From: a virus
IMG/VR virus record: IMGVR_UViG_3300042863_000158
Span: 1 to 38,712 of that record
Direction: 5' to 3' (one strand)
DNA length: 38,712 nucleotides
The position numbers were made by a program, and so were the translations under genes. Below, piece after piece: positions 7,445-34,949 of the stretch (positions are counted from its first letter, which is position 1; every line of letters starts with the position of its first letter). The notes beneath the pieces are model-generated. The model was not told where the DNA came from. It was given only the letters and a program-made list of their open reading frames with translations, and searched no databases.

Positions 7445-9331
7445 GTGACTTTTCAGAAGACTAATAACCCCCGTACCGCTATGGCATCAGAGGCTAAAGC
7501 CAAAGTTTTGGCGCTGGTATCTGAAGGTATGTCGGTACATAGGGCTATGGAACAAAATGGCAAAAAGCCAGACACTGTTCGTATCTGGTGTTTAAGAGAC
7601 CCAGCCTTTGCTACCGCCCTTGTCGAGGCAAAGGAAAACGCTAAAGAGCGTTCATTAAAAGCCATGGGCGTAGCCCGTGAAGATATTACCTTTCCTCAGT
7701 TTTCTGAGATGTTTTTGGACCAGCGGGTTTTTCCACATCATATGGATTGGATTGACCTATTAGAGGGACGCGAGCCATCATGGCTGCACCCCAATATGAT
7801 TTACGAGCCAGGCAATCGGAACCGCCTACTTCTAAACGTTCCCCCTGAGCACGCCAAATCAACCGTCATTACGGTTAACTACGCAACTTATCGCATCGCT
7901 CTCAATCCGAACGTCCGCATTATTGTGGTCTCGAAGACCCTTGTTAAAGCACGCGAGTTCGTGTACGCAATCAAGCAGAGATTATCCCACCCGCGCTGGC
8001 TAAAGTTACAAACAACTTTTGGACCAGAAGGGGGCTGGAAAGAGGACTCAGATACTTGGCGAGTTGACACGGTCTATCTTGGGAGTGATGCGAGAAACTC
8101 AAGTGAAAAAGACCCAACGATTCAGGCACTGGGTATGGGTGGTCAGATTTACGGCGCACGTGCCGACCTGATTATCTTAGATGACTGTATAACTACCTCT
8201 AACGCTCACGAGCATGAGAAGCAGATTAACTGGCTGCAAAAGGAAGTTATTACCCGTCTGGGCAAGAACGGTAAGTTACTGGTGGTAGGAACCCGTATCG
8301 CCCCATCTGATTTTTATAAAGAACTCCGCGACCCTAAGCATTGGTCTGGTGGCAAGTCACCTTTCACATACATGGGTATGCCAGCAGTTCTTGACTATAG
8401 CGATAAGCCAGAAGACTGGACAACTCTCTGGCCTGCAAGTGATACACCCTGGGACGGGGATGAAGATACCCCACCTGATGAAGAAGGGTTATACCCTAAG
8501 TGGGATGGCGAAACGCTTTTCAAGCGTAGAAGCGAAGTAACCCCAGCAACATGGGCGCTTGTTTATCAACAAGAAGATGTAACTGAAGACTCTATCTTTC
8601 CACCTGAACTGGTGCAAGGTTCTATCAATGGCATGCGTAAGCGTGGTCCATTAAAGCCAGGTGCAACGGGACATCCACCTCAGGTTGAGGGTTACACTAT
8701 TGTGGGCTTTGACCCTGCTATGGCGGGTAATGCTGCATTTGTGGCTATCACCTATAACAGGACCGATGGAAAGATTTATGTTCTAGAGTGTTTGAACATG
8801 CCAGACCCTACGCCACAAAAGATTAGGCAAGCCATTGAAGATTTTACACTTCGGTACAGACCGCAAGAGTTCCGCGTTGAAATCAACGCCCACCAAAAAG
8901 CCTACTCCCTTGATGAAGAACTACGAACATGGCTCTCTTCACACGGCGTACGGCTTAATTCTCACTTTACAGGCAAGAACAAATGGGACACAAACTTCGG
9001 TGTGGCATCAATGTCAACACTCTTTGGCACTACTCGTGAAGGCAAGTTCCAAAAGAACAACATTATAGAATTACCTAGTACTGAAAACTCAGAAGGTATG
9101 AAGGCGTTAGTCCAACAGTTAATTACCTGGAAGCCTGACACCAGAGGTAAGACAGATACTGTTATGGCTTTATGGTTTGCGGTTATCCGTGCCCGTGAGT
9201 TCATGCAGCAAAATAGCAATATCGCAAGGTATGCCAACAACCGTTGGGCTACTAGAGCGCAGCAACACAAACGTACCTCAATTAACTTAGATGATGCCGC
9301 ATCTGAAATGTGGAATCACCAATACGGATAA
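7445..9331 (+). CDS. terL: Terminase large subunit with N-terminal HTH
   Basis: 628 aa, longer than the usual terminase ATPase-nuclease. Residues 17-60 resemble the helix-turn-helix of small terminases (VLALVSEGMSVHRAME...). The ATPase has an atypical Walker A (NVPPEHAKST, about 131-140) and Walker B (LIILDD, about 241-246). The nuclease has GFDPAM near 420, EINAHQ near 478 and KTDTVMALWF near 568. It packages genome DNA into proheads through the portal. The GTG start at 7445 is preceded by GGGACAG; ATG 7481 lacks a site. No separate small terminase is seen, so the N-terminal HTH may supply DNA recognition. First gene of the rightward block. Confidence 0.93.
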   Translation: MTFQKTNNPRTAMASEAKAKVLALVSEGMSVHRAMEQNGKKPDTVRIWCLRDPAFATALVEAKENAKERSLKAMGVAREDITFPQFSEMFLDQRVFPHHMDWIDLLEGREPSWLHPNMIYEPGNRNRLLLNVPPEHAKSTVITVNYATYRIALNPNVRIIVVSKTLVKAREFVYAIKQRLSHPRWLKLQTTFGPEGGWKEDSDTWRVDTVYLGSDARNSSEKDPTIQALGMGGQIYGARADLIILDDCITTSNAHEHEKQINWLQKEVITRLGKNGKLLVVGTRIAPSDFYKELRDPKHWSGGKSPFTYMGMPAVLDYSDKPEDWTTLWPASDTPWDGDEDTPPDEEGLYPKWDGETLFKRRSEVTPATWALVYQQEDVTEDSIFPPELVQGSINGMRKRGPLKPGATGHPPQVEGYTIVGFDPAMAGNAAFVAITYNRTDGKIYVLECLNMPDPTPQKIRQAIEDFTLRYRPQEFRVEINAHQKAYSLDEELRTWLSSHGVRLNSHFTGKNKWDTNFGVASMSTLFGTTREGKFQKNNIIELPSTENSEGMKALVQQLITWKPDTRGKTDTVMALWFAVIRAREFMQQNSNIARYANNRWATRAQQHKRTSINLDDAASEMWNHQYG

Positions 9332-9638: not shown

Positions 9639-11381
9639 ATGCTTTCGATAGAACAGATTTCAGCACGCGTTGCATCCCTTAAGGACCGCGCTGCAGAGCG
9701 TGATGCACGCCAGCAAGATGTTCTTGCTGTCCGCAAAGGACAGATAGCAAGTGTTTACCCAGATTTTTTTCCACAGGGTGTTGATGCTAACGTAGTAGCA
9801 AACTTTATTGACATTGTGGCCCGTGACCTTTCTGAGGTCATGGCTCCACTACCATCTGTCAATTGTTCTGCTGCTAACCAAGCCAACGACCGTGCTCGTA
9901 AGTTTGCAGATACACGCACTCGTATTGCTAACAATTATTTTTCTAACTCAGATTTACAAGTACAGATGTACACAGGCGCAGACATGTACATCACATTTGG
10001 TTTCGTCCCTTTCATCATTGAATTAGACGAAGAAGCAGGGCTACCGCGTATTCGCGTAGAAAATCCAGTGGGGGCTTACCCAGAATTTGACCGCTACGGA
10101 CGCTGTATCGCCTTTGCTAAGCGTTATTACTTGAGCATTGGAGAACTTGCTTCAGAGTTCCCTGAGTATGCAAGAGAACTTCTTGGTCCAGAAATGTACA
10201 AGGGAGACCTTAACGCTCAACTAGAGATAATCCGTTATTACGATGCAGACCAATCTCTGTTGTTTGTTCCATCAAAAAACAATTTAATCTTATCTAAGGC
10301 GGCTAACCCGCTTGGTAAGATGATGGTTGTTGTTGCTAAGCGTCCATCAGTTGATGGTGAGATGCGTGGACAGTTTGATGATGTATTGGGTATTCAGTTG
10401 CTTCGTAACAGGTTCGCATTACTTGCGATGGAAGCAGCAGAGAAGTCAGTACAGGCTCCAATTGTTCTACCAACAGATGTAACAGAACTTGAACTGGGTG
10501 GCGATGCAATTATTCGCACAGCAAACCCAGCAGGTGTAAGACGCGTAGACCTTAACATTCCACCTGGCGCATTTACTGAGCAGGCTTTGTTGCAGCAGGA
10601 ACTACGAACAGGAACACGTTACCCAGAGGGACGTACTGGAAACATTGATGCTTCCATTATTACTGGTCAAGGTGTTCAAGCACTTATGGGTGGCTTTGAT
10701 ACGCAGGTTAAATCTGCTCAGGCTATCTTTGCTTCTGCATTACGAGATGTTATCTCTGTATGTTTTGAGGTAGATGAGAAGTTTTTTGATTTTGAAAAGA
10801 CAATCCGTGGCGTAGATGCAGGTTCTCCTTATAGCCTTACCTACAAGCCAGGCAAAGATATTAAGAGTGACTTTACTGCCGATGTTAGATACGGCATGCT
10901 TGCTGGGCTTAACCCAGCACAGGGACTTATCTTTATGTTACAAGCATTAGGTGGTGGATTAATTTCTACAGACCTAGCAATGCGTGAACTACCATTTGGT
11001 ATTAACGTAACGCAGGAACAAGAAAAGATTGAAATTGAGAATATGCGTAAAGCACTAGTTAGTTCTTTACAAGCATACACACAAGCCATTCCACAAATGG
11101 CTGTGCAAGGTGGGGACCCATCAGCCGTGGTAAATAAAATCGCTGGAGTTATTAAGGCTCGTCAACGTGGCGTACCAATAGAGGATGCCGTTGAAGAAGT
11201 CTTTGCGCCAGAATTACCTCCTGCTGGTGCACAGGTTGAGCAACCGTCCCCTGTTCCCGCCGCGCCAGCAGGAGGCGCTTCTTTAGAAACACAGCAACCA
11301 CCACAACTGCAAAGTCTTTTAGCAAGTTTAACATCAGGCGGAGAAGCCTCAGCATCGGCAAGAACAGTAACTAGACGCTAA
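9639..11381 (+). CDS. Portal protein
   Basis: 580 aa. Placed directly after terminase and before the head genes. It begins with a charged helical region, has a middle rich in beta structure (FVPFIIELDEEAGLPRIRVENP), a probable stem/wing, and LLRNRFALLAMEAAEKSVQAP, then GTRYPEGRTGNIDASIITGQG, which is portal-like. The final 70 residues are Pro/Ala/Gln-rich and probably disordered. It would form the dodecameric DNA channel at the head vertex. AGGACA precedes ATG 9639. Confidence 0.82.
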   Translation: MLSIEQISARVASLKDRAAERDARQQDVLAVRKGQIASVYPDFFPQGVDANVVANFIDIVARDLSEVMAPLPSVNCSAANQANDRARKFADTRTRIANNYFSNSDLQVQMYTGADMYITFGFVPFIIELDEEAGLPRIRVENPVGAYPEFDRYGRCIAFAKRYYLSIGELASEFPEYARELLGPEMYKGDLNAQLEIIRYYDADQSLLFVPSKNNLILSKAANPLGKMMVVVAKRPSVDGEMRGQFDDVLGIQLLRNRFALLAMEAAEKSVQAPIVLPTDVTELELGGDAIIRTANPAGVRRVDLNIPPGAFTEQALLQQELRTGTRYPEGRTGNIDASIITGQGVQALMGGFDTQVKSAQAIFASALRDVISVCFEVDEKFFDFEKTIRGVDAGSPYSLTYKPGKDIKSDFTADVRYGMLAGLNPAQGLIFMLQALGGGLISTDLAMRELPFGINVTQEQEKIEIENMRKALVSSLQAYTQAIPQMAVQGGDPSAVVNKIAGVIKARQRGVPIEDAVEEVFAPELPPAGAQVEQPSPVPAAPAGGASLETQQPPQLQSLLASLTSGGEASASARTVTRR

Positions 11382-11400
11382 CTAATAAAGGTAGGGGACA

Positions 11401-11970
11401 ATGACAACACTCGCTGCTTATCAGGGAGATGGCTGGTCTGTAATTGGTTGCGACTCTAGAGCATCTGATGAAAGCGGTCGTCCTATGACGATTGCTACTC
11501 ACAAGATTACCGAAAACAACGGATACTTAATTGCAGGAGCAGGCGCTAGCCGCGGCTCTAACTTATTGCAGTTTGGATGGAAGCCACCTAAGCCAACTAA
11601 GTTAGAAGACTTAGATTTGTTTATGACGCAAAAGTTTATACCAGCAATGCGCAAAACATTTATTGACGCAGGTTATGACATGAAAGAAGATGGGGATGCT
11701 GCTGCACAAGATTCGAGTTTTATTATTAGCGTTCATGGAATCTTGTATCCTATATTTGAGGATTACTCTTGGGACCGTGATAGTCGTGGCATTTATTTTA
11801 ATGGTAGCGGTGGCGATGTTGCCCTTGGTGCTATGGCAGCAATGGGTATTAGTAAAACAAAAACTCCAGAACAAGCAGAAGTTATTATCCGCAAAGCAAT
11901 AGAAATTTCTTGCAACTGGGATATTCACACTAGTGAACCTATTATTACAAAGATTCAGTACGCAAAATGA
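11401..11970 (+). CDS. Proteasome-beta/HslV-like Ntn-hydrolase
   Basis: 189 aa starting MTTLAAYQGDG. After Met removal, Thr1 would be the nucleophile. Counted from Thr1, Asp17 sits in GCDSR (as in proteasome Asp17/Arg19), and Lys34 in HKI corresponds to Lys33. A GAGA segment at 45-48, FNGSGGDVALGAMAAMG at 132-148 and a C-terminal D173..T176 match the family layout. No propeptide is seen, as in HslV. It follows the portal and precedes head and scaffold genes, where a capsid maturation protease would be expected; no canonical prohead protease was recognised. Family is confident; role as capsid or host-protein protease is inference. Confidence 0.85.
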   Translation: MTTLAAYQGDGWSVIGCDSRASDESGRPMTIATHKITENNGYLIAGAGASRGSNLLQFGWKPPKPTKLEDLDLFMTQKFIPAMRKTFIDAGYDMKEDGDAAAQDSSFIISVHGILYPIFEDYSWDRDSRGIYFNGSGGDVALGAMAAMGISKTKTPEQAEVIIRKAIEISCNWDIHTSEPIITKIQYAK

Positions 11971-12233
11971 GCAAAGAGTTTAGAGACAAAATAGAAGAAG
12001 CCTTAAAGATTCTTCTCGAAGAAGATACGAAGGGGACTGAGTTCATCTGCACTAACTGGTTAATGATAACCGAGTGGGCAGACTACGAAGGGACCCGATA
12101 TTTACACACAGAAGTTAGCGAAGCCATGACACCATGGAACGCGTATGGGATGATGAAGATGGCACAAGAATATAACAGTGAAGTACTTGGCACTAAACAT
12201 GAAACCGTTGAAGAAGAGGAGGATGAAGAATGA
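11967..12233 (+). CDS. Acidic hypothetical protein, 88 aa
   Basis: Starts MSKEFRDKIEEALKILLEE, overlapping the hydrolase stop as ATGA. Strongly acidic, with a C-terminal run of Glu and Asp, and a Trp-rich centre (NWLMITEWADYEG). No domain recognised. Tight coupling to the Ntn-hydrolase suggests a common process, such as a partner or modulator. Confidence 0.7.
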   Translation: MSKEFRDKIEEALKILLEEDTKGTEFICTNWLMITEWADYEGTRYLHTEVSEAMTPWNAYGMMKMAQEYNSEVLGTKHETVEEEEDEE

Positions 12234-12661
12234 CAACTGCCCCAGAAAATCGTGGTGGGATGCGTCCAACAGCCCCTCAGAATAATCCAGCAAATGTTTC
12301 AGCAACTGGTGGTGCAGGCCAATCGGGCCGTGCCACACAACCTGCTAGATATATTGCTGGCTTGCCATACGGAGAAGGTCAAGCAACTATGGCGCAACAA
12401 ACAGGTGCGCCTATGCAGGGTAGTTCAATGCCACAGATGCCTCAAATAGAAATGCCAACACCGCTAGGTGCGCCATCTATGCGTCCTGGTGAGCCAATTA
12501 CATCTGGTATTGACATGGGTGATGGTGCAGGTTCAGAGGCAATGCGTGGTTTACCTAATCAAACACCAACGCTTCTTGACACATTAAAGTATTTAGCACA
12601 GTTTGATTCATCAGGAGATGCAGAGTTAATTTACAGAACAATTCTTGATAGAGACTTTTAA
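12230..12661 (+). CDS. Low-complexity head-region protein
   Basis: 143 aa, Gly/Pro/Gln/Met-rich for the first 110 residues and likely disordered, with a short helical C-terminus (TLLDTLKYLAQFDSS). The ATG overlaps the previous stop as ATGA; its TAA overlaps the next ATG by one base. No recognised family. It may be a minor virion or assembly linker protein. Confidence 0.7.
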   Translation: MTTAPENRGGMRPTAPQNNPANVSATGGAGQSGRATQPARYIAGLPYGEGQATMAQQTGAPMQGSSMPQMPQIEMPTPLGAPSMRPGEPITSGIDMGDGAGSEAMRGLPNQTPTLLDTLKYLAQFDSSGDAELIYRTILDRDF

Positions 12662-15600
12662 TGGCCCAGTACATCAAACCGATTGTTGCTGAGGTATCAC
12701 CTAATATTTACGCTGCTGCAAAAAATGCAAACCTAACTGGCACGGAAAAAAACCAAGTAGAGCAGATGAGTTACACGATTAAGAAGCATCGTGAACTAGT
12801 TAAACTTGGTCCAGAGATGGCTCGTAAAGAATACAACCGATTAGAACCTCAGTTCCAAGACCAATTAAAGTTTATGTTTAAAGATGCTGACTACATGCAA
12901 GATGCACCTGATGTATCAGACCGTCTCTTTGGCGTTGCCAAAACTATCGGAACAATAGTTGCATCACCATTGATTGGTTTATTTAAACTAGGTGGACAGT
13001 ACAATCGCTTGATTAACCAGCCTTACAAGGTAGCACGACAGGTAGCACAGGGCGAAGATTTGTTTTCAATGAAAACATGGACAGATGCATGGGATGGAAA
13101 AAATCAGTATGATGACAAGGCTTTGGCGGAAGCGACCAGTTACTTTGGTGAGTTTGATGTTATGGTTGCTAAAGGATTACTTGCGGGTAAAACTCCTGGC
13201 GAGATTGTTCAAGACTTTGGTAAAGTAGACGCTAACCTTCTTAACTCAATTAAAAAAGCCTATGATGAACCAGAGGCTTTTAAGGAAGTACTAGATGGCG
13301 TAAAGTATGCACAGATTTCTCCAGGACGAGACATTGCTCGTATGCTTGACCGCAAGCCACCATCAAGTGGTGTTAGCGGTACAACAAAAAATGTATCTGG
13401 TGTTATAGATTTTGTTTATCAGATTGCTATAGACCCACTTACTTGGATAACAGGTGGACTAAGCAAGGGTGTAACTAAGGGTGAGCGTATTGCTAACTCG
13501 CTTACTGAAGCAATTAACAATGGTGTTTCAGTAGAAAAGGCTGTTGGAGATACATTTAAGAATCCGTTAGTTTATTCATTCTGGCAAGACGGACTAGGTC
13601 CTGCGCTTAAAAAGGTAAAAGACTCAAGCGGAACTCCAGGTGCAAAGTCAATTGCACTTGATGATATTGCAAAAAACTTTCCTGGTTATAATGACCAGAA
13701 TGCAATTAAGGCACTTGTAGATGGAGAAGTATTTGATGCTGCATCAGCACAAGGATACTTTGAAAATGCTGGCAATCTAAATCTATTGCTAGCAGGACGA
13801 GTTGATGGTTTAACTTACATGCGCAATGGCGTAGTAGTAGCCCGTCAAAATCGTTTATTCTCAGATGCAATAACACGTTCACTAGACAGAGTCTTTAATA
13901 ACATGTCTCGTAATGCTGCTGAAAGAGATGCTGCTCTTGAACCAATTAGTGCTGCATTTCTTAATGCAGAAGATTCACTACAGCGTTTAGTTAACCCTCT
14001 TTCTGATATGTCTGTAGTATTAAAGGCCAATGAAGAAATTAAAGGTTGGAAAAGAATTGGCCGCTTAGCGGCACGTTCGCCACAAGGATTAGAAGTACGA
14101 GTTGGTGTTAACGCTGTTGATACTGCTTTTAACTTTACAGCCCGTGCTCGTCAGATTTTGCCAAAGGATATGGCTCAAGCATTAACTGTTCGCTTTTTGG
14201 ACTCAACGGCTGATGAGCAAGTAGTTATTTTGCGTAATTTAGATGCTGCAACTATGTATTCAATGGGACTAGGTGGCAGTGTTAAGGGTGAAGATTTAAT
14301 TCTTAAGACACTACAGGACAAGTATGGTGATAAAGCAGGCTTTGCTACCAAGCGAGACCTAGCAATTAACCCAGACCATGTTAAGTTTGCACCAGCGAAC
14401 ACTGTTCGTGAATCTGAATCAGGATTTTTTGTTAATACTGAAGGTCCGTTGCAGCCTTATCAGACTACATGGGCTATTGGCCCACTACCTTATGACACAA
14501 TCGGGTCAACTGTGTGGGAAATTAAGTCTAAGAAAAACATTATTACTGCACTTGGCGGAGCAACACAAGGTAATTTTTCAAAAAGACTAGTTGATGCATG
14601 GTCTATTTTAACTTTGTTCCCACGTTTAGGTGTTCGTTCTGCTATTGACGAAGCAACTATGTATTTACTGTCTGCACCTACTAAAGATTTACGTAAGTTT
14701 GCATCATTAGAGGGACTAAGACTAGGAAATATATCTCGCGCTGCTACTGGTTCTAAGTCTGCTAGTGGTCCTATACGTCGTAGTATTCAAAAGACTTTAA
14801 AGTTTGTACCGCGCTCTAACGCACCTATGCGTTTGGGCCAGCAACCACGTTATTCACACGAAGAAGCGCTATCAATCTTAGACCGACAGACAATCTTGCA
14901 GAATAAAGCAGATGAACTGGGTGTTGATGTTGTTCTTTTGTCAAGTCTAGAAAAACGTGAAGCAATATCAGATACTGTTTCACAGATGTATGGTCGTTAT
15001 GTAGACCCTGAGTCTGCTGGTTATTTAATGCAGGCGTTTATACATTCACCTGATGCACTTAACTCAATGGCTGCTTCTCTTGTAGCAAGCAGTGGTATTT
15101 CTGGTCGCTATGGCGAAGAGATTGTTGCATCAGTTATTACACCATCTATGCTTGATATGGCTTTTGATGCATTAGGTATTAAGATGGGTAAGGGAACCCG
15201 TACTATTGATACTGCCATGCTAACAGAACGCGAAGTTGCACTAGCACACTTTGAAAAATGGTTCAAGATGTTGGCTGCCAACAAGGCTAAGTTAACTGAT
15301 GATGTAACTCTTAACCCAGCAGATATATTCTTTAGATACAATGCATTAAAGCCAGGCGAGATAGACCCACGCACTGGTAAAGAAATGATGGAATTAGCAC
15401 TCGATGCTGCTATGGAAAAAATTGGTTTTAAATTTGAGCCATTAACTAAAACTTGGCAGGTTCAAGACAATCTATCTGTTGGTGCGTTTTTAGAACGCAC
15501 AGCCTACACAGTTCAGGCCCGTGGGCGTGGGCTAGATGATGAGCAGATTGCCCGTGGTCAGTTATTCCGTATGTTTACTGATATGTATGAAACATTCCAT

Positions 15601-17772
15601 GGTGATGCTAACAAGTTTAATCAAGGATTATTAGATGTAGTTAAGAATAGTTACGGGCAACTAGTCAAGATGAGTGCAGAATCTGGTCGCACTCCTACTT
15701 GGAACGCAGCGGTTGCACGTATTCCTTTAGATGAGTTTCAAGATGCTAGCCAAGGATTCCGTATTAGCGGACCTATCAATACTGAAATAGCCTTTGGTGA
15801 CTTTGATGTAGAGTCTGTATTTAGACGCTACGGAAATACTATGATGGACTGGATGGACCAACAAGTAACTGGTTTATTCCGTCAACCAGCAGTTATGGTT
15901 ACATATGCACAGTTGCGCAAGAAGTATGCTGGTATTGAAAAAGAGTTTGTTCGTCAACAGGTAGCAAATGAGATGGGTCCTTTTGCTGGTGCTACTCAAA
16001 AGCAGATTGATGCAGTAACTGAGAAGTATAAGGCTATAGCCGAAAAGCGTTTTACTGAATTGGCAGTGCGTGAAGCAGCAGATACTATTCTAAAGTTTGC
16101 TGATAACCCAAAGATACGTTCTAACTTTGCATTTAGTGTGCGTACTGTTGGTCGTTACTATAGAGCAACTGAGGATTTCTATCGCCGTATCTATCGTTTA
16201 AAGGATGTAGCACCACGTACTTTGTATCGTTTGCGTTTAGTTAACGTAGGACTTGAATCAAGTGGCGCTATCTTTAACGATGCTGAAGGTGAGCCGTATG
16301 TAGTAATGCCTATGGATAACATTATCTACAAGGCTACAGATGGCGCATTTCGTGCGCTAACAGGTAATACTGGATACAGCCAGCCATTGTTTAATGAGTT
16401 TACATTTAAACTAAGAATGGTTAACCCATCATTCTCACAAGATGCTGGTCTTCCTACCTTGTCTGGCCCTATTGCAGGACTAGGAGTTATTGCTGTAAAG
16501 AATATACTTGGCATAGTTCCAGGAAAAATTCCATTTGTTGGTGGTGCAATACAGCCATACTCACAGCAACTAGGTGAAAGCATTGATACATTTGCACTGG
16601 GTAACATTGGTGACAATGTTGATATATTCCGTGCTGTTGTTCCTTCATCCTTACAGCGTGTCTGGGGTATGTTGGGATTTGATGAGAAGTCTAGACAAGA
16701 AGTAACCGCTGCACAGCAGGCTATTGCCTACAATGCAGCCAACGGAATAGGTATTGCAGCAGATGCTACAGATGAAGAGAAGTCTGAATACCTAAAGAAC
16801 ATCCGTATCTCAGCACATAACGTATTGTTTATGCGTCACTTCCTAGGTCTGTTATCACCAGTTGCACCTACAACTATGGAGTCCGTAGGAGTTCCTGACT
16901 ATATTAAAGATACTGGCATTACTACTTTGCGTTCAGAGTTCTTTGATATTCTTAATGGCATAACCGCTATTAATAATGGAGACATCTCAGACCCATACGA
17001 GGTAGCACTTGCTACATACATTGGTAAGAATCCAGGCAAACTTATCTATACAGTCGCCCGTGAGGATAAGCAGACTAGCGTTCTTATTAAGAACACAGAT
17101 AAATTAAAGAACTGGGGCATCAAAAACGCTGATTTAATTAAGACTTATGGCGAGGTTGCATACATCTTTGCGCCACAGATTGGTGACTTTAATGCTGGTA
17201 CTTATAACTGGATTAAGGCAGCAGGTCTTATTGAGAGTAAGTCTCTTGAAGATTACTACACAGATATACAGGTAGCAGAGGATAAGCAGAAGTATTATGA
17301 CATTGCTCGTCAGCAAAAAGATATTCTTAATAATTTGTCAGACCCAGAACTACGAGCCAATGTTATTAAAGCAGCAGAGCAGCAACGTGCAGCACTAAAG
17401 GCTAACAACCCACTACTTAATTCAGAACTTATTGGTTCTGGTAATGAAATTGGTAACGAGTCTGTAATGCTTGAGAGTCTTGAGCAGTTAATTTCAAACC
17501 CTAAGACCGATGTTAGACCAGCCACACGCCAGAAGTTAATGATGGCAATTAAAATGATACGAGAGTTTATTGCTTTTTCTACTGACCCAGAGTTAAAGAA
17601 TGTTGAAAACATTGCACAACTTAAGCGGGAAAGAAAAGAGCAGATAGAGGCTAATCTAAATGAGTTAATGGTAGGCGACTTATATGTAACAGAAGCCAAC
17701 CGCGCAATCTTTAAATCAATACTTGGATTTTATTCACGTGAATCATACTATGTCTATAAGGAGTTAAAGTAA
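12661..17772 (+). CDS. Very large helical virion protein (1703 aa)
   Basis: The largest gene in the window. Predicted mostly helical, with hydrophobic stretches near residues 93-112 (TIGTIVASPLIGLFKLGG) and 1270-1290 (IAGLGVIAVKNILGIVPG) and several helical Ala/Lys/Glu-rich parts. No enzyme motif or lysozyme signature found. It lies between the portal-side genes and two further helical proteins before the scaffold. By size and place it may be an internal or ejection protein of a short-tailed phage. A tape-measure role is less likely because no tail-tube genes flank it. Confidence 0.78.
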   Translation: MAQYIKPIVAEVSPNIYAAAKNANLTGTEKNQVEQMSYTIKKHRELVKLGPEMARKEYNRLEPQFQDQLKFMFKDADYMQDAPDVSDRLFGVAKTIGTIVASPLIGLFKLGGQYNRLINQPYKVARQVAQGEDLFSMKTWTDAWDGKNQYDDKALAEATSYFGEFDVMVAKGLLAGKTPGEIVQDFGKVDANLLNSIKKAYDEPEAFKEVLDGVKYAQISPGRDIARMLDRKPPSSGVSGTTKNVSGVIDFVYQIAIDPLTWITGGLSKGVTKGERIANSLTEAINNGVSVEKAVGDTFKNPLVYSFWQDGLGPALKKVKDSSGTPGAKSIALDDIAKNFPGYNDQNAIKALVDGEVFDAASAQGYFENAGNLNLLLAGRVDGLTYMRNGVVVARQNRLFSDAITRSLDRVFNNMSRNAAERDAALEPISAAFLNAEDSLQRLVNPLSDMSVVLKANEEIKGWKRIGRLAARSPQGLEVRVGVNAVDTAFNFTARARQILPKDMAQALTVRFLDSTADEQVVILRNLDAATMYSMGLGGSVKGEDLILKTLQDKYGDKAGFATKRDLAINPDHVKFAPANTVRESESGFFVNTEGPLQPYQTTWAIGPLPYDTIGSTVWEIKSKKNIITALGGATQGNFSKRLVDAWSILTLFPRLGVRSAIDEATMYLLSAPTKDLRKFASLEGLRLGNISRAATGSKSASGPIRRSIQKTLKFVPRSNAPMRLGQQPRYSHEEALSILDRQTILQNKADELGVDVVLLSSLEKREAISDTVSQMYGRYVDPESAGYLMQAFIHSPDALNSMAASLVASSGISGRYGEEIVASVITPSMLDMAFDALGIKMGKGTRTIDTAMLTEREVALAHFEKWFKMLAANKAKLTDDVTLNPADIFFRYNALKPGEIDPRTGKEMMELALDAAMEKIGFKFEPLTKTWQVQDNLSVGAFLERTAYTVQARGRGLDDEQIARGQLFRMFTDMYETFHGDANKFNQGLLDVVKNSYGQLVKMSAESGRTPTWNAAVARIPLDEFQDASQGFRISGPINTEIAFGDFDVESVFRRYGNTMMDWMDQQVTGLFRQPAVMVTYAQLRKKYAGIEKEFVRQQVANEMGPFAGATQKQIDAVTEKYKAIAEKRFTELAVREAADTILKFADNPKIRSNFAFSVRTVGRYYRATEDFYRRIYRLKDVAPRTLYRLRLVNVGLESSGAIFNDAEGEPYVVMPMDNIIYKATDGAFRALTGNTGYSQPLFNEFTFKLRMVNPSFSQDAGLPTLSGPIAGLGVIAVKNILGIVPGKIPFVGGAIQPYSQQLGESIDTFALGNIGDNVDIFRAVVPSSLQRVWGMLGFDEKSRQEVTAAQQAIAYNAANGIGIAADATDEEKSEYLKNIRISAHNVLFMRHFLGLLSPVAPTTMESVGVPDYIKDTGITTLRSEFFDILNGITAINNGDISDPYEVALATYIGKNPGKLIYTVAREDKQTSVLIKNTDKLKNWGIKNADLIKTYGEVAYIFAPQIGDFNAGTYNWIKAAGLIESKSLEDYYTDIQVAEDKQKYYDIARQQKDILNNLSDPELRANVIKAAEQQRAALKANNPLLNSELIGSGNEIGNESVMLESLEQLISNPKTDVRPATRQKLMMAIKMIREFIAFSTDPELKNVENIAQLKRERKEQIEANLNELMVGDLYVTEANRAIFKSILGFYSRESYYVYKELK

Positions 17773-20970: not shown

Positions 20971-21444
20971 ATGAGCAACAACTACTGGGATGAAGAAGAT
21001 GACGACCTAGATACAGAAACGGAAGCACCATTGGATGGTAGTGACTTACTTAAAAAGTTACGCAAAGCCAAGCGTGCAGATGAAAAACGTATTAAGGAAC
21101 TTACTGAGCAACTTGAGATATTCTCCAAGGCGCAGCGTGAGTCGACACTTAAGGAAGTCCTAGAAAAGAAGGGCGTAAATACCAAAGCAGCACGGCTAAT
21201 CCTAAAAGATATATCCGAAGTTAATGAAGAGTCAATTAATAATTGGCTATCTGACAACGGAGATTTAATTGGGTATCAGCCTAAGTCTAATAATGACGAC
21301 ATCAATCTTGCGGCATTACGCCAGCAAGATGTTGTGACGCAGCAGGGTATTTCGCCAGATAAAGCAAATGATATGAACGCTCGTCTAAATGGCAATTTTG
21401 ACAATGCGGAAGACTTCATTGCTTTTCTTCAGTCACAACAATAA
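20971..21444 (+). CDS. Probable scaffolding protein
   Basis: 157 aa immediately before the major capsid gene. Acidic N-terminus (EEDDDLDTETEAP), then a charged coiled-coil of about residues 24-75 (LLKKLRKAKRADEKRIKEL...), and a Gln/Asn-rich C-terminal part. This is the usual layout of a phage scaffold that directs prohead assembly. ATG 20971 is preceded by AAGGGTGG. No sequence-specific scaffold motif exists to confirm it; position and composition are the evidence. Confidence 0.75.
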   Translation: MSNNYWDEEDDDLDTETEAPLDGSDLLKKLRKAKRADEKRIKELTEQLEIFSKAQRESTLKEVLEKKGVNTKAARLILKDISEVNEESINNWLSDNGDLIGYQPKSNNDDINLAALRQQDVVTQQGISPDKANDMNARLNGNFDNAEDFIAFLQSQQ

Positions 21445-21475: not shown

Positions 21476-22678
21476 ATGGCAAACGCATATACAGATACCA
21501 CGAGCGGTTCGTTCGGCGGTACAGTAGGCGGCGCTGGTCTCGTACAAAAGGCGTATGACCGCCTTCTCGAGTTCGCTCTCCGTTCAGAACCCCTAATTCG
21601 TTCTGTCGCAGATAAGCGCCCCGCACGTCAAGCAATTCCAGGTTCAACAGTAGTTCTACAGAAGTACGTTGACCTTGATGCAGTAACAGGAACACTAACA
21701 GAGACTGTTGACCCAGATGCAGTAGCACTGACAACACCAACCTCTGTCACAGTAACACTTAATGAGTACGGTAACGCAGTTCTAGTAACTCGCGCATTGG
21801 AACTCTTCTCACTTGCAGATGTAGACCCAGCAATTGCTAACATCATTGCATATAACCTTGCAGATTCTATCGACAAGGTTGCAATGACAACTCTACGCTC
21901 AGGTACAAACAACATCTTCTCAGGTACAGCAACATCAACTGCAACAATCGCTGCAACTTCTACACTAGACTCAGCAGACATCCGTAAGGCAGTTGCTAAG
22001 TTGCGTTCTAACAAGGCCAAGGGCCGTCGTGGAAATGCATACTGGGTAGGTATTCACCCAGAAGTTTCACACGACCTTCGTGCTGAGACAGGCGACCTAG
22101 GATGGCGCTACCCACAGTCACAGTCTGCTTCAGAAGCAAGCAAGATTTGGGCTGGAGAAATTGGTGAGTACGAAGGCGCGTTCTTTGTAGAGTCATCACG
22201 TTTGTTTAATGCCAAGTCAGGTGCAGACCAGTCAGCATTGGCAACAACAGCAGTAACAGTTGCAGGAACATCAGCAGGATTCACATTCGGCGTTGCTTCA
22301 TCATCTGTTATCGCTGCTCGCGCTGAAGTTGGCGATAAGGTTTCAGGAACAGGTATTGCATCTGCTGCTAAGATTACAGCAATTGCAACATCAGGTTCAA
22401 CAACAACAATTACTGTAGATACTGCTAACACAGCAGCAGTTACAGCAACAACAGTTGTTACAGTAACTCCAGTAACACGTGTCTTTGACACAATCGTTGC
22501 AGGCGCACAGGCAATGGCAGAAGCCGTTGCTGAAGAGCCACATGTAGTTATTGGTAACGTAACTGATAAGTTGATGCGTTTCCGCCCAATGGGTTGGTAC
22601 GGCGTACTTGGCTTTGCAGTTTACCGCGATGAGGCTCTATACCGAATCACATCAGGTTCATCAATCGCTGCTCTCTAG
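21476..22678 (+). CDS. Major capsid protein, N4-gp56-like
   Basis: 400 aa. AAGGAG precedes ATG 21476. Residues 20-140 fit the N4-gp56/HK97-fold layout: AYDRLLEFALRSEPLIRS, GSTVVLQKYVDLDA, TLTETVDPDAVALT, TVTLNEYGNAVLVTRALEL and DSIDKVAMTTL. The fold resumes at about 330 (RVFDTIVAGAQAMAE). Between about 254 and 330 is a Thr/Ala-rich beta segment (TAVTVAGTSAGFTF...), probably an inserted surface domain. Codons here are richer in C endings than in neighbours, as expected for a highly expressed gene. It forms the head shell. Confidence 0.87.
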   Translation: MANAYTDTTSGSFGGTVGGAGLVQKAYDRLLEFALRSEPLIRSVADKRPARQAIPGSTVVLQKYVDLDAVTGTLTETVDPDAVALTTPTSVTVTLNEYGNAVLVTRALELFSLADVDPAIANIIAYNLADSIDKVAMTTLRSGTNNIFSGTATSTATIAATSTLDSADIRKAVAKLRSNKAKGRRGNAYWVGIHPEVSHDLRAETGDLGWRYPQSQSASEASKIWAGEIGEYEGAFFVESSRLFNAKSGADQSALATTAVTVAGTSAGFTFGVASSSVIAARAEVGDKVSGTGIASAAKITAIATSGSTTTITVDTANTAAVTATTVVTVTPVTRVFDTIVAGAQAMAEAVAEEPHVVIGNVTDKLMRFRPMGWYGVLGFAVYRDEALYRITSGSSIAAL

Positions 22679-34311: not shown

Positions 34312-34686
34312 CTATTTCTGCAGGGCAGAAAGTATGTCTTCAACCTTAATAAGGTAGCCCTTACTAGGGTTCGGAGGTATGTTGCAAGTAATGGCTCTTC
34401 CCCGAACCGTTACTACCTGCTTGAGTACCTCCGTTGGTATCAACAGGGTTGCCCCCTCTAATACAAAGGCCCAGTATTCTGCCTTAGTACTAGATAGCCC
34501 TGATAGATACCAATTCTCATTGTTGTGCGACCAGCAAACTGTTTCGATATATAGATTGCCAGTATCTTTCCATTTCAAATCTGTTTTTACTTCTACTGTC
34601 TTGCCACCTGTTAGTAGTTGTTCTACTAACCCTTCTCCTTCTTGTCCCTTTGCTAGGTCTAAGTCGAAGTCTGATAGTTTGCTCAT
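34312..34686 (-). CDS. PD-(D/E)XK-like nuclease
   Basis: 124 aa. GEGLVEQLL with Glu18, VEVKTD with Glu32/Lys34, a GNLYIET segment and GLSSTKAEYWAFVL, which is a small PD-(D/E)XK nuclease layout. It may be an endonuclease for recombination or host DNA breakdown. The ATG at 34686 overlaps the whiB stop (ATGA). Last gene of the leftward block. The missing clear catalytic Asp keeps this tentative. Confidence 0.65.
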   Translation of the reverse strand: MSKLSDFDLDLAKGQEGEGLVEQLLTGGKTVEVKTDLKWKDTGNLYIETVCWSHNNENWYLSGLSSTKAEYWAFVLEGATLLIPTEVLKQVVTVRGRAITCNIPPNPSKGYLIKVEDILSALQK

Positions 34687-34949
34687 GGGTATCCTAAGTA
34701 TAGTGGCTTGGCTGTAATGTTGAGTTTGTTTCTCATTAGTTTACGTTCATACTCTGTAGTACCGCCCCAGAATCCAAAGACAGCGTGTCTAAGTGAGTAG
34801 TCTAAGCACTGCTTCTTAACTTCACAGTTGCTACAGATTTTCTTAAGCATCTTAACTTCTCTATATGTAGAACTACCATCTGGTACAAAGAACTCCTCTG
34901 ACTCTACACTTCTGCAGTTAGGTGTGCCTTGCCAATCTGGGTATTCCAT
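34683..34949 (-). CDS. whiB: WhiB-like (Wbl) iron-sulfur regulator
   Basis: 88 aa with the four-Cys set of Wbl proteins: Cys12, then CSNCEVKKQC (Cys39, Cys42, Cys48). It is followed by VFGFWGGTTEYER (59-69), the G-W turn of the family, and a basic tail. Wbl proteins are found in actinobacteria and their phages, bind a [4Fe-4S] cluster and contact region 4 of the primary sigma factor. The ATG lies directly after the stop of the FmdB-like gene, with GGAGG inside it. Together with the sigma-like gene it may redirect host transcription to late genes. Confidence 0.9.
   Translation of the reverse strand: MEYPDWQGTPNCRSVESEEFFVPDGSSTYREVKMLKKICSNCEVKKQCLDYSLRHAVFGFWGGTTEYERKLMRNKLNITAKPLYLGYP

Follow-up and report, generated by a model that had tools for sequence, protein, structure and literature searches.

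Proteasome homologues encoded by phages were described in 2021 as PPH and AAH, both without a propeptide, a partner or a known function, and that study found neither an AAH in actinophages nor an informative gene context (Fuchs, Alva, Lupas 2021, PMC8665760). In the bacterial proteasome homologue BPH, the pore loop is acidic and an unfoldase is lacking (PMC5777263). An HslV-like protein is carried by the Planktophila phages LanE43AprE7 (hereafter E7) and F5, cultured phages in which WhiB, a sigma factor and a glycosyltransferase have been described (PMC10202952). An exchange slot adjacent to a portal gene was not described in the literature we retrieved, and searches of the literature yielded no functional work on the present phage family.

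We analyzed a stretch of 38,712 nucleotides (the window), in which an earlier note had taken one gene for a proteasome-like Ntn-hydrolase whose place in the head-assembly cluster would be unusual. A proteasome-like gene is not a novelty in phages, as PHROG 1040 and PMC8665760 document. What is new here is the allelic slot in which the gene lies, its link to acI actinophages, including the cultured E7 and F5, and the evidence that it is dispensable.

Family assignment and predicted active site

The gene and the parts of it discussed below are as follows.

11401..11970, plus strand: proteasome/HslV-like N-terminal threonine hydrolase (type A1), 189 aa; assigned from phrog_1040, the AlphaFold2 (AF2) model, VIA and the catalytic residues
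11404..11406, plus strand: codon of Thr1, the predicted catalytic nucleophile (residue 2, exposed once Met is removed); invariant
11452..11454, plus strand: codon of Asp17 (residue 18); invariant
11503..11505, plus strand: codon of the catalytic Lys (residue 35; Lys33 of the proteasome); invariant
11668..11715, plus strand: acidic pore loop, residues 90-105; from the profile alignment to BPH 5ovs

The open reading frame starts with ATG, encodes an M-T-T N-terminus and has a GGGGA motif shortly 5′. Its 189-aa product matched phrog_1040, 'peptidase HslV family' (E 1.3e-17), a family that carries no assigned role; across the window protein and the alleles B, C and E7, matches to PHROG 1040 had E values of 1e-17 to 4e-30. 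A Pfam search and a single-sequence PDB search with the window protein returned no match, so profiles are needed to detect its kinship, and a profile built from 30 relatives matched PDB sequences of HslV and BPH (E 5e-9 to 8e-7). In the AF2 model (pLDDT 86, pTM 0.85), strands and helices follow the order of the proteasome beta fold, and the Ntn beta-sandwich is present with flanking helices, two of which span residues 50-58 and 71-89. Foldseek with this model placed BPH at the top and gave full-length matches to BPH and 20S subunits, as well as matches to HslV. With VIA, the model reached Z 19.7 against BPH 5ovt across 172 residues (rmsd 2.7 A), Z 19.5 against an archaeal 20S subunit and about 18-19 against further 20S subunits, with residues 2-189 covered. 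Judged by PHROG 1040, the profile matches and the predicted fold, the product is a proteasome-superfamily Ntn-hydrolase, as the earlier note had proposed, and the structure prediction and Foldseek check that it suggested returned a resemblance to BPH, 20S and HslV.

Thr1, Asp17 and the catalytic Lys were identical in all 88 distinct homologues, and the equivalent of the oxyanion-hole Gly47 was kept in 87 of the 88. The invariance of all three agrees with the residues named beforehand as catalytic (Thr1, Asp17 and Lys34 in mature numbering). Removal of the initiator Met, which the small second residue would allow, is expected to expose Thr1 as nucleophile. The gene is under purifying selection, with median dN/dS of 0.07-0.15 per allele type. 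Because the proteasome fold, the invariant catalytic residues and purifying selection coincide, the phage enzyme is very probably active.

Like PPH and AAH, the window protein is a phage-borne, propeptide-free group I proteasome homologue with Thr1, Asp17 and Lys33 and no known partner (PMC8665760). Unlike PPH, which has about 140 aa and is missing helix H2, it has 189 aa with both H1 and H2, and on these two grounds we rejected identity with PPH. It further differs from the phage homologues of that study in belonging to an actinobacterial phage group and in having a fixed gene context. With HslV it shares the superfamily and a clear profile match, but its acidic pore loop is longer and no HslU-like partner was found among phage ORFs of at least 130 aa. 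Given this result and scores against HslV models far below the NCBIfam cut-offs (17.6 bits against 137, and 16.9 against 157.75), the protein was rejected as an HslV orthologue.

The closest resemblance is to BPH (5ovs/5ovt/5ovu), the best structural match, which likewise has Thr1 without a propeptide, a long acidic pore loop and no unfoldase gene; among window and phage ORFs of at least 130 aa we found no AAA+ unfoldase. The two nevertheless share only about 17% identity, and the BPH gene is chromosomal and bacterial. Scans of genome contigs yielded no bacterial relatives of the phage protein, misses that do not show absence from hosts. The acidic loop of the phage protein aligns with the acidic pore loop of BPH and has low pLDDT at residues 96-102. 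Since BPH is the best structural match and an acidic, flexible loop aligns at the matching place, we propose that the subunits would assemble into a double ring of the BPH kind, its pore loop acidic. Such a ring would act on unfolded proteins or peptides independently of ATP, with no AAA+ unfoldase dedicated to it.

An exchange slot between the portal gene and g6

The window is a tailed-phage genome of 38.7 kb encoding a terminase, a portal, three large ejection-type proteins, a scaffold-like protein, a capsid and a glycosyltransferase, with replication genes, a sigma factor and WhiB on the opposite strand. The genes that frame the protease, and the host marker, are listed here.

7445-9331: terminase
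9639..11381, plus strand: portal protein, left border of the exchange slot; phrog_104, E 3.2e-29
11967..12233, plus strand: g5, 88 aa, its start overlapping the protease stop; seen only behind the protease, never behind K
12230..12661, plus strand: g6, right border of the exchange slot; phrog_8200, present in 19/19 genomes compared
20971..21444, plus strand: scaffold-like protein, directly upstream of the capsid gene; weak PF14265 and phrog_648 matches
21476..22678, plus strand: major capsid protein; phrog_1357, E 1.9e-75
34683..34949, minus strand: WhiB-like regulator, actinobacterial-host marker; PF02467, E 7e-17

This neighborhood places the protease between the portal and the scaffold/capsid genes, as had been noted from the sequence; roughly 9 kb filled with further virion genes separate it from the scaffold gene. 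The terminase ORF has an N-terminal HTH resembling small terminase subunits (phrog_4044, residues 5-70), which suggests a fusion of small and large subunits. The 1703-aa protein at 12661-17772 has no family match and is roughly 20-50% identical among relatives whose portals share about 72-88%. Capsids fall into two lineages, with 36-44% versus 55-85% identity to that of the window, and these have been exchanged independently of portal and protease.

The nearest isolates are E7 and F5 (OX376640 and OX376641), whose portal and capsid are about 77% identical to those of the window; both records (OX376640.1 and OX376641.1) are filed as 'Caudovirales sp. ct2KA10', without annotation. The WhiB, sigma factor and glycosyltransferase of the window agree with the description of these phages (PMC10202952), which belong to the phage family of the window. 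Because the gene set fits E7 and F5 and these are the nearest isolates, the phage most likely infects a freshwater acI actinobacterium (Ca. Nanopelagicales). In E7, the HslV-like gene occupies the matching slot behind the portal gene and is followed by a g5 homologue. Identity of the E7/F5 protein to the window allele is nevertheless just 31-33%, and the E7 allele, at about 33%, is C-like.

Across viral contigs the gene order was constant: terminase, portal, slot, g6, large proteins, scaffold and capsid. The slot held one of four divergent protease alleles, with g5 behind it in some cases, or else a small basic protein that we call K, and never both. Identity to the window protein was 70-100% for A1, 67-70% for A2, about 35% for B and 33-36% for C. 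Each of 142 loci showed a single state (A1 78, A2 10, B 14, C 2, K 38). Protease was thus present in 104 of the 142 and K in 38, a ratio biased by the 80 loci that were found with the protease as query; all 38 K loci came from the portal-seeded search. Exclusion was complete in 19 full or near-full-length genomes, with protease/K counts of 11/0 versus 0/8. K begins MPPRKKK and has 82-89 aa (e.g., L101:3878-4129, and 37 other loci); it showed no recognizable family, protease families included. K was rejected as a g5 homologue (hhalign probability 0.4%).

Comparison of the window DNA with three loci (L086, L088 and L089) delimited the exchanged segment. Both flanks were 84-100% identical, and identity dropped to 61-82% at 11400-12000. 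The slot there held, instead of the window's allele, one 68% identical to it, with portal, g5, g6 and the downstream proteins nearly unchanged. In these alignments the slot swaps are gene-sized. Slot state changed at least nine times on the portal tree and five times on the capsid tree; on the latter, K and protease genomes were interleaved, with at least three changes. Slot states formed clusters on the trees of portal, terminase and scaffold, which indicates that swaps are rare rather than free and that exchange is not unlimited.

Prohead maturation

The earlier note had raised the possibility that the Ntn-hydrolase matures the prohead. If so, it would be an essential enzyme replacing the usual serine or cysteine type. 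The gene lies directly downstream of the portal gene, a place where HK97-type proteases often sit, and no other prohead protease was found among window ORFs of at least 130 aa, in agreement with the earlier note, which saw no ordinary one. However, the scaffold-like protein is encoded separately, ahead of the capsid gene, and phages that assemble on a scaffold, P22 and T7 among them, do without a maturation protease.

The K relatives also weigh against such a role. Their portals are 80-88% and their capsids 73-85% identical to those of the window, but a profile search over whole records found no protease homologue anywhere in 11/11 K records, and a second profile again found none in two K records. 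Two of these 11, genomes of 37,923 and 39,538 bases, have end overlaps of 127 and 138 bases and are therefore complete. A listing of K-only genes gave no plausible substitute protease, and several K genomes had no convincing K-only gene of at least 90 aa. Streptomyces phages carry a homologous head module (portal 45% and capsid 53% identical to those of the window); in the one examined, the protease was absent, its head region contained no annotated prohead protease, and there was no K homologue.

Homologues in other annotated phages point the same way. The suggested check of their gene neighborhoods gave a divided answer: the protease lies in the head operon in relatives of the window, and outside head clusters in more distant annotated phages, among accessory or nucleotide-metabolism genes. 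The homologue adjoins WhiB in DSL-LC01 and ThyX in Pumpernickel, lies near DNA ligase in Tunturi_5 and close to the genome end in Pitbull, and occupies similar accessory-type places in MTATph1 and XacN1. In D'Alembert it sits in a block of small genes, apart from an annotated head maturation protease that this phage has in addition.

An essential role in head maturation is unlikely on this comparative evidence, because the protease is missing from complete K genomes and from the Streptomyces phage. We rejected assignment to the prohead maturation proteases, since the protease is not present wherever a similar capsid is built and none of the K-only genes resembled a replacement; that it is the essential maturation enzyme of these phages we consider very improbable. 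We read the gene as an exchangeable accessory one from an already known phage family rather than as a new kind of prohead protease.

Candidate roles and meaning for the phage group

We favor, with a probability of roughly 0.6, a swappable accessory, propeptide-free peptidase of the proteasome family in freshwater acI-type actinophages that most likely acts on host, competing-phage or defence proteins; action on host proteins was the alternative that the earlier note had offered. Judged by its position, it would be expressed with the late operon. It would meet its targets during infection, making no essential maturation cut in capsid or scaffold.

The slot itself leaves room for a role in the particle. 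It is always filled and always in the virion-gene operon, which suits a virion or late function no less than a host-directed one. The protease could trim a virion protein in the phages that carry it, with K achieving the equivalent step non-proteolytically; candidate substrates would be the portal tail, g6, the 1703-aa, 572-aa and 453-aa ejection-type proteins, and the scaffold. The constant position between portal and ejection-type genes is consistent with this, as is the mutual exclusion by which K and the protease resemble alternatives for a single slot. Yet K has no recognizable protease family, and alleles swap while the candidate partners stay the same: between L086 and the window, the portal, g5, g6, 1703-aa, 572-aa, 453-aa and scaffold proteins are 89-99% identical despite the protease swap. 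Conversely, one allele type occurs beside capsids just 36-44% alike. No partner therefore changes in step with the allele; this speaks against a specific substrate in the virion, and we regard virion trimming as unlikely.

Allelic diversity in a single slot, gene-sized replacement and the placing of homologues among accessory genes of other phages, once beside WhiB, would also suit a role in counter-defence or superinfection, in which a protein of the host or of a rival phage is degraded and an arms race has diversified the alleles. The low dN/dS within each allele type speaks of constraint and not of rapid change, and we hold this specific form of host-directed action to be rather improbable. 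A similarly low weight goes to the speculation that a mini-proteasome is made together with the head proteins, with alleles or K tuning either the processing of virion or ejected proteins or the attack on the host.

Phage proteasome homologues have been known since 2021 without functional context, and one of them can now be assigned to a fixed, swappable slot. The phage group concerned is that of abundant freshwater actinophages, and its cultured members E7 and F5 carry the protease. Natural genomes that have or lack the gene but share similar head genes offer a ready comparison for finding substrates. Should virion or ejection proteins prove to be substrates of the enzyme, a proteasome-type enzyme would for the first time be involved in the assembly of phage particles or in entry.
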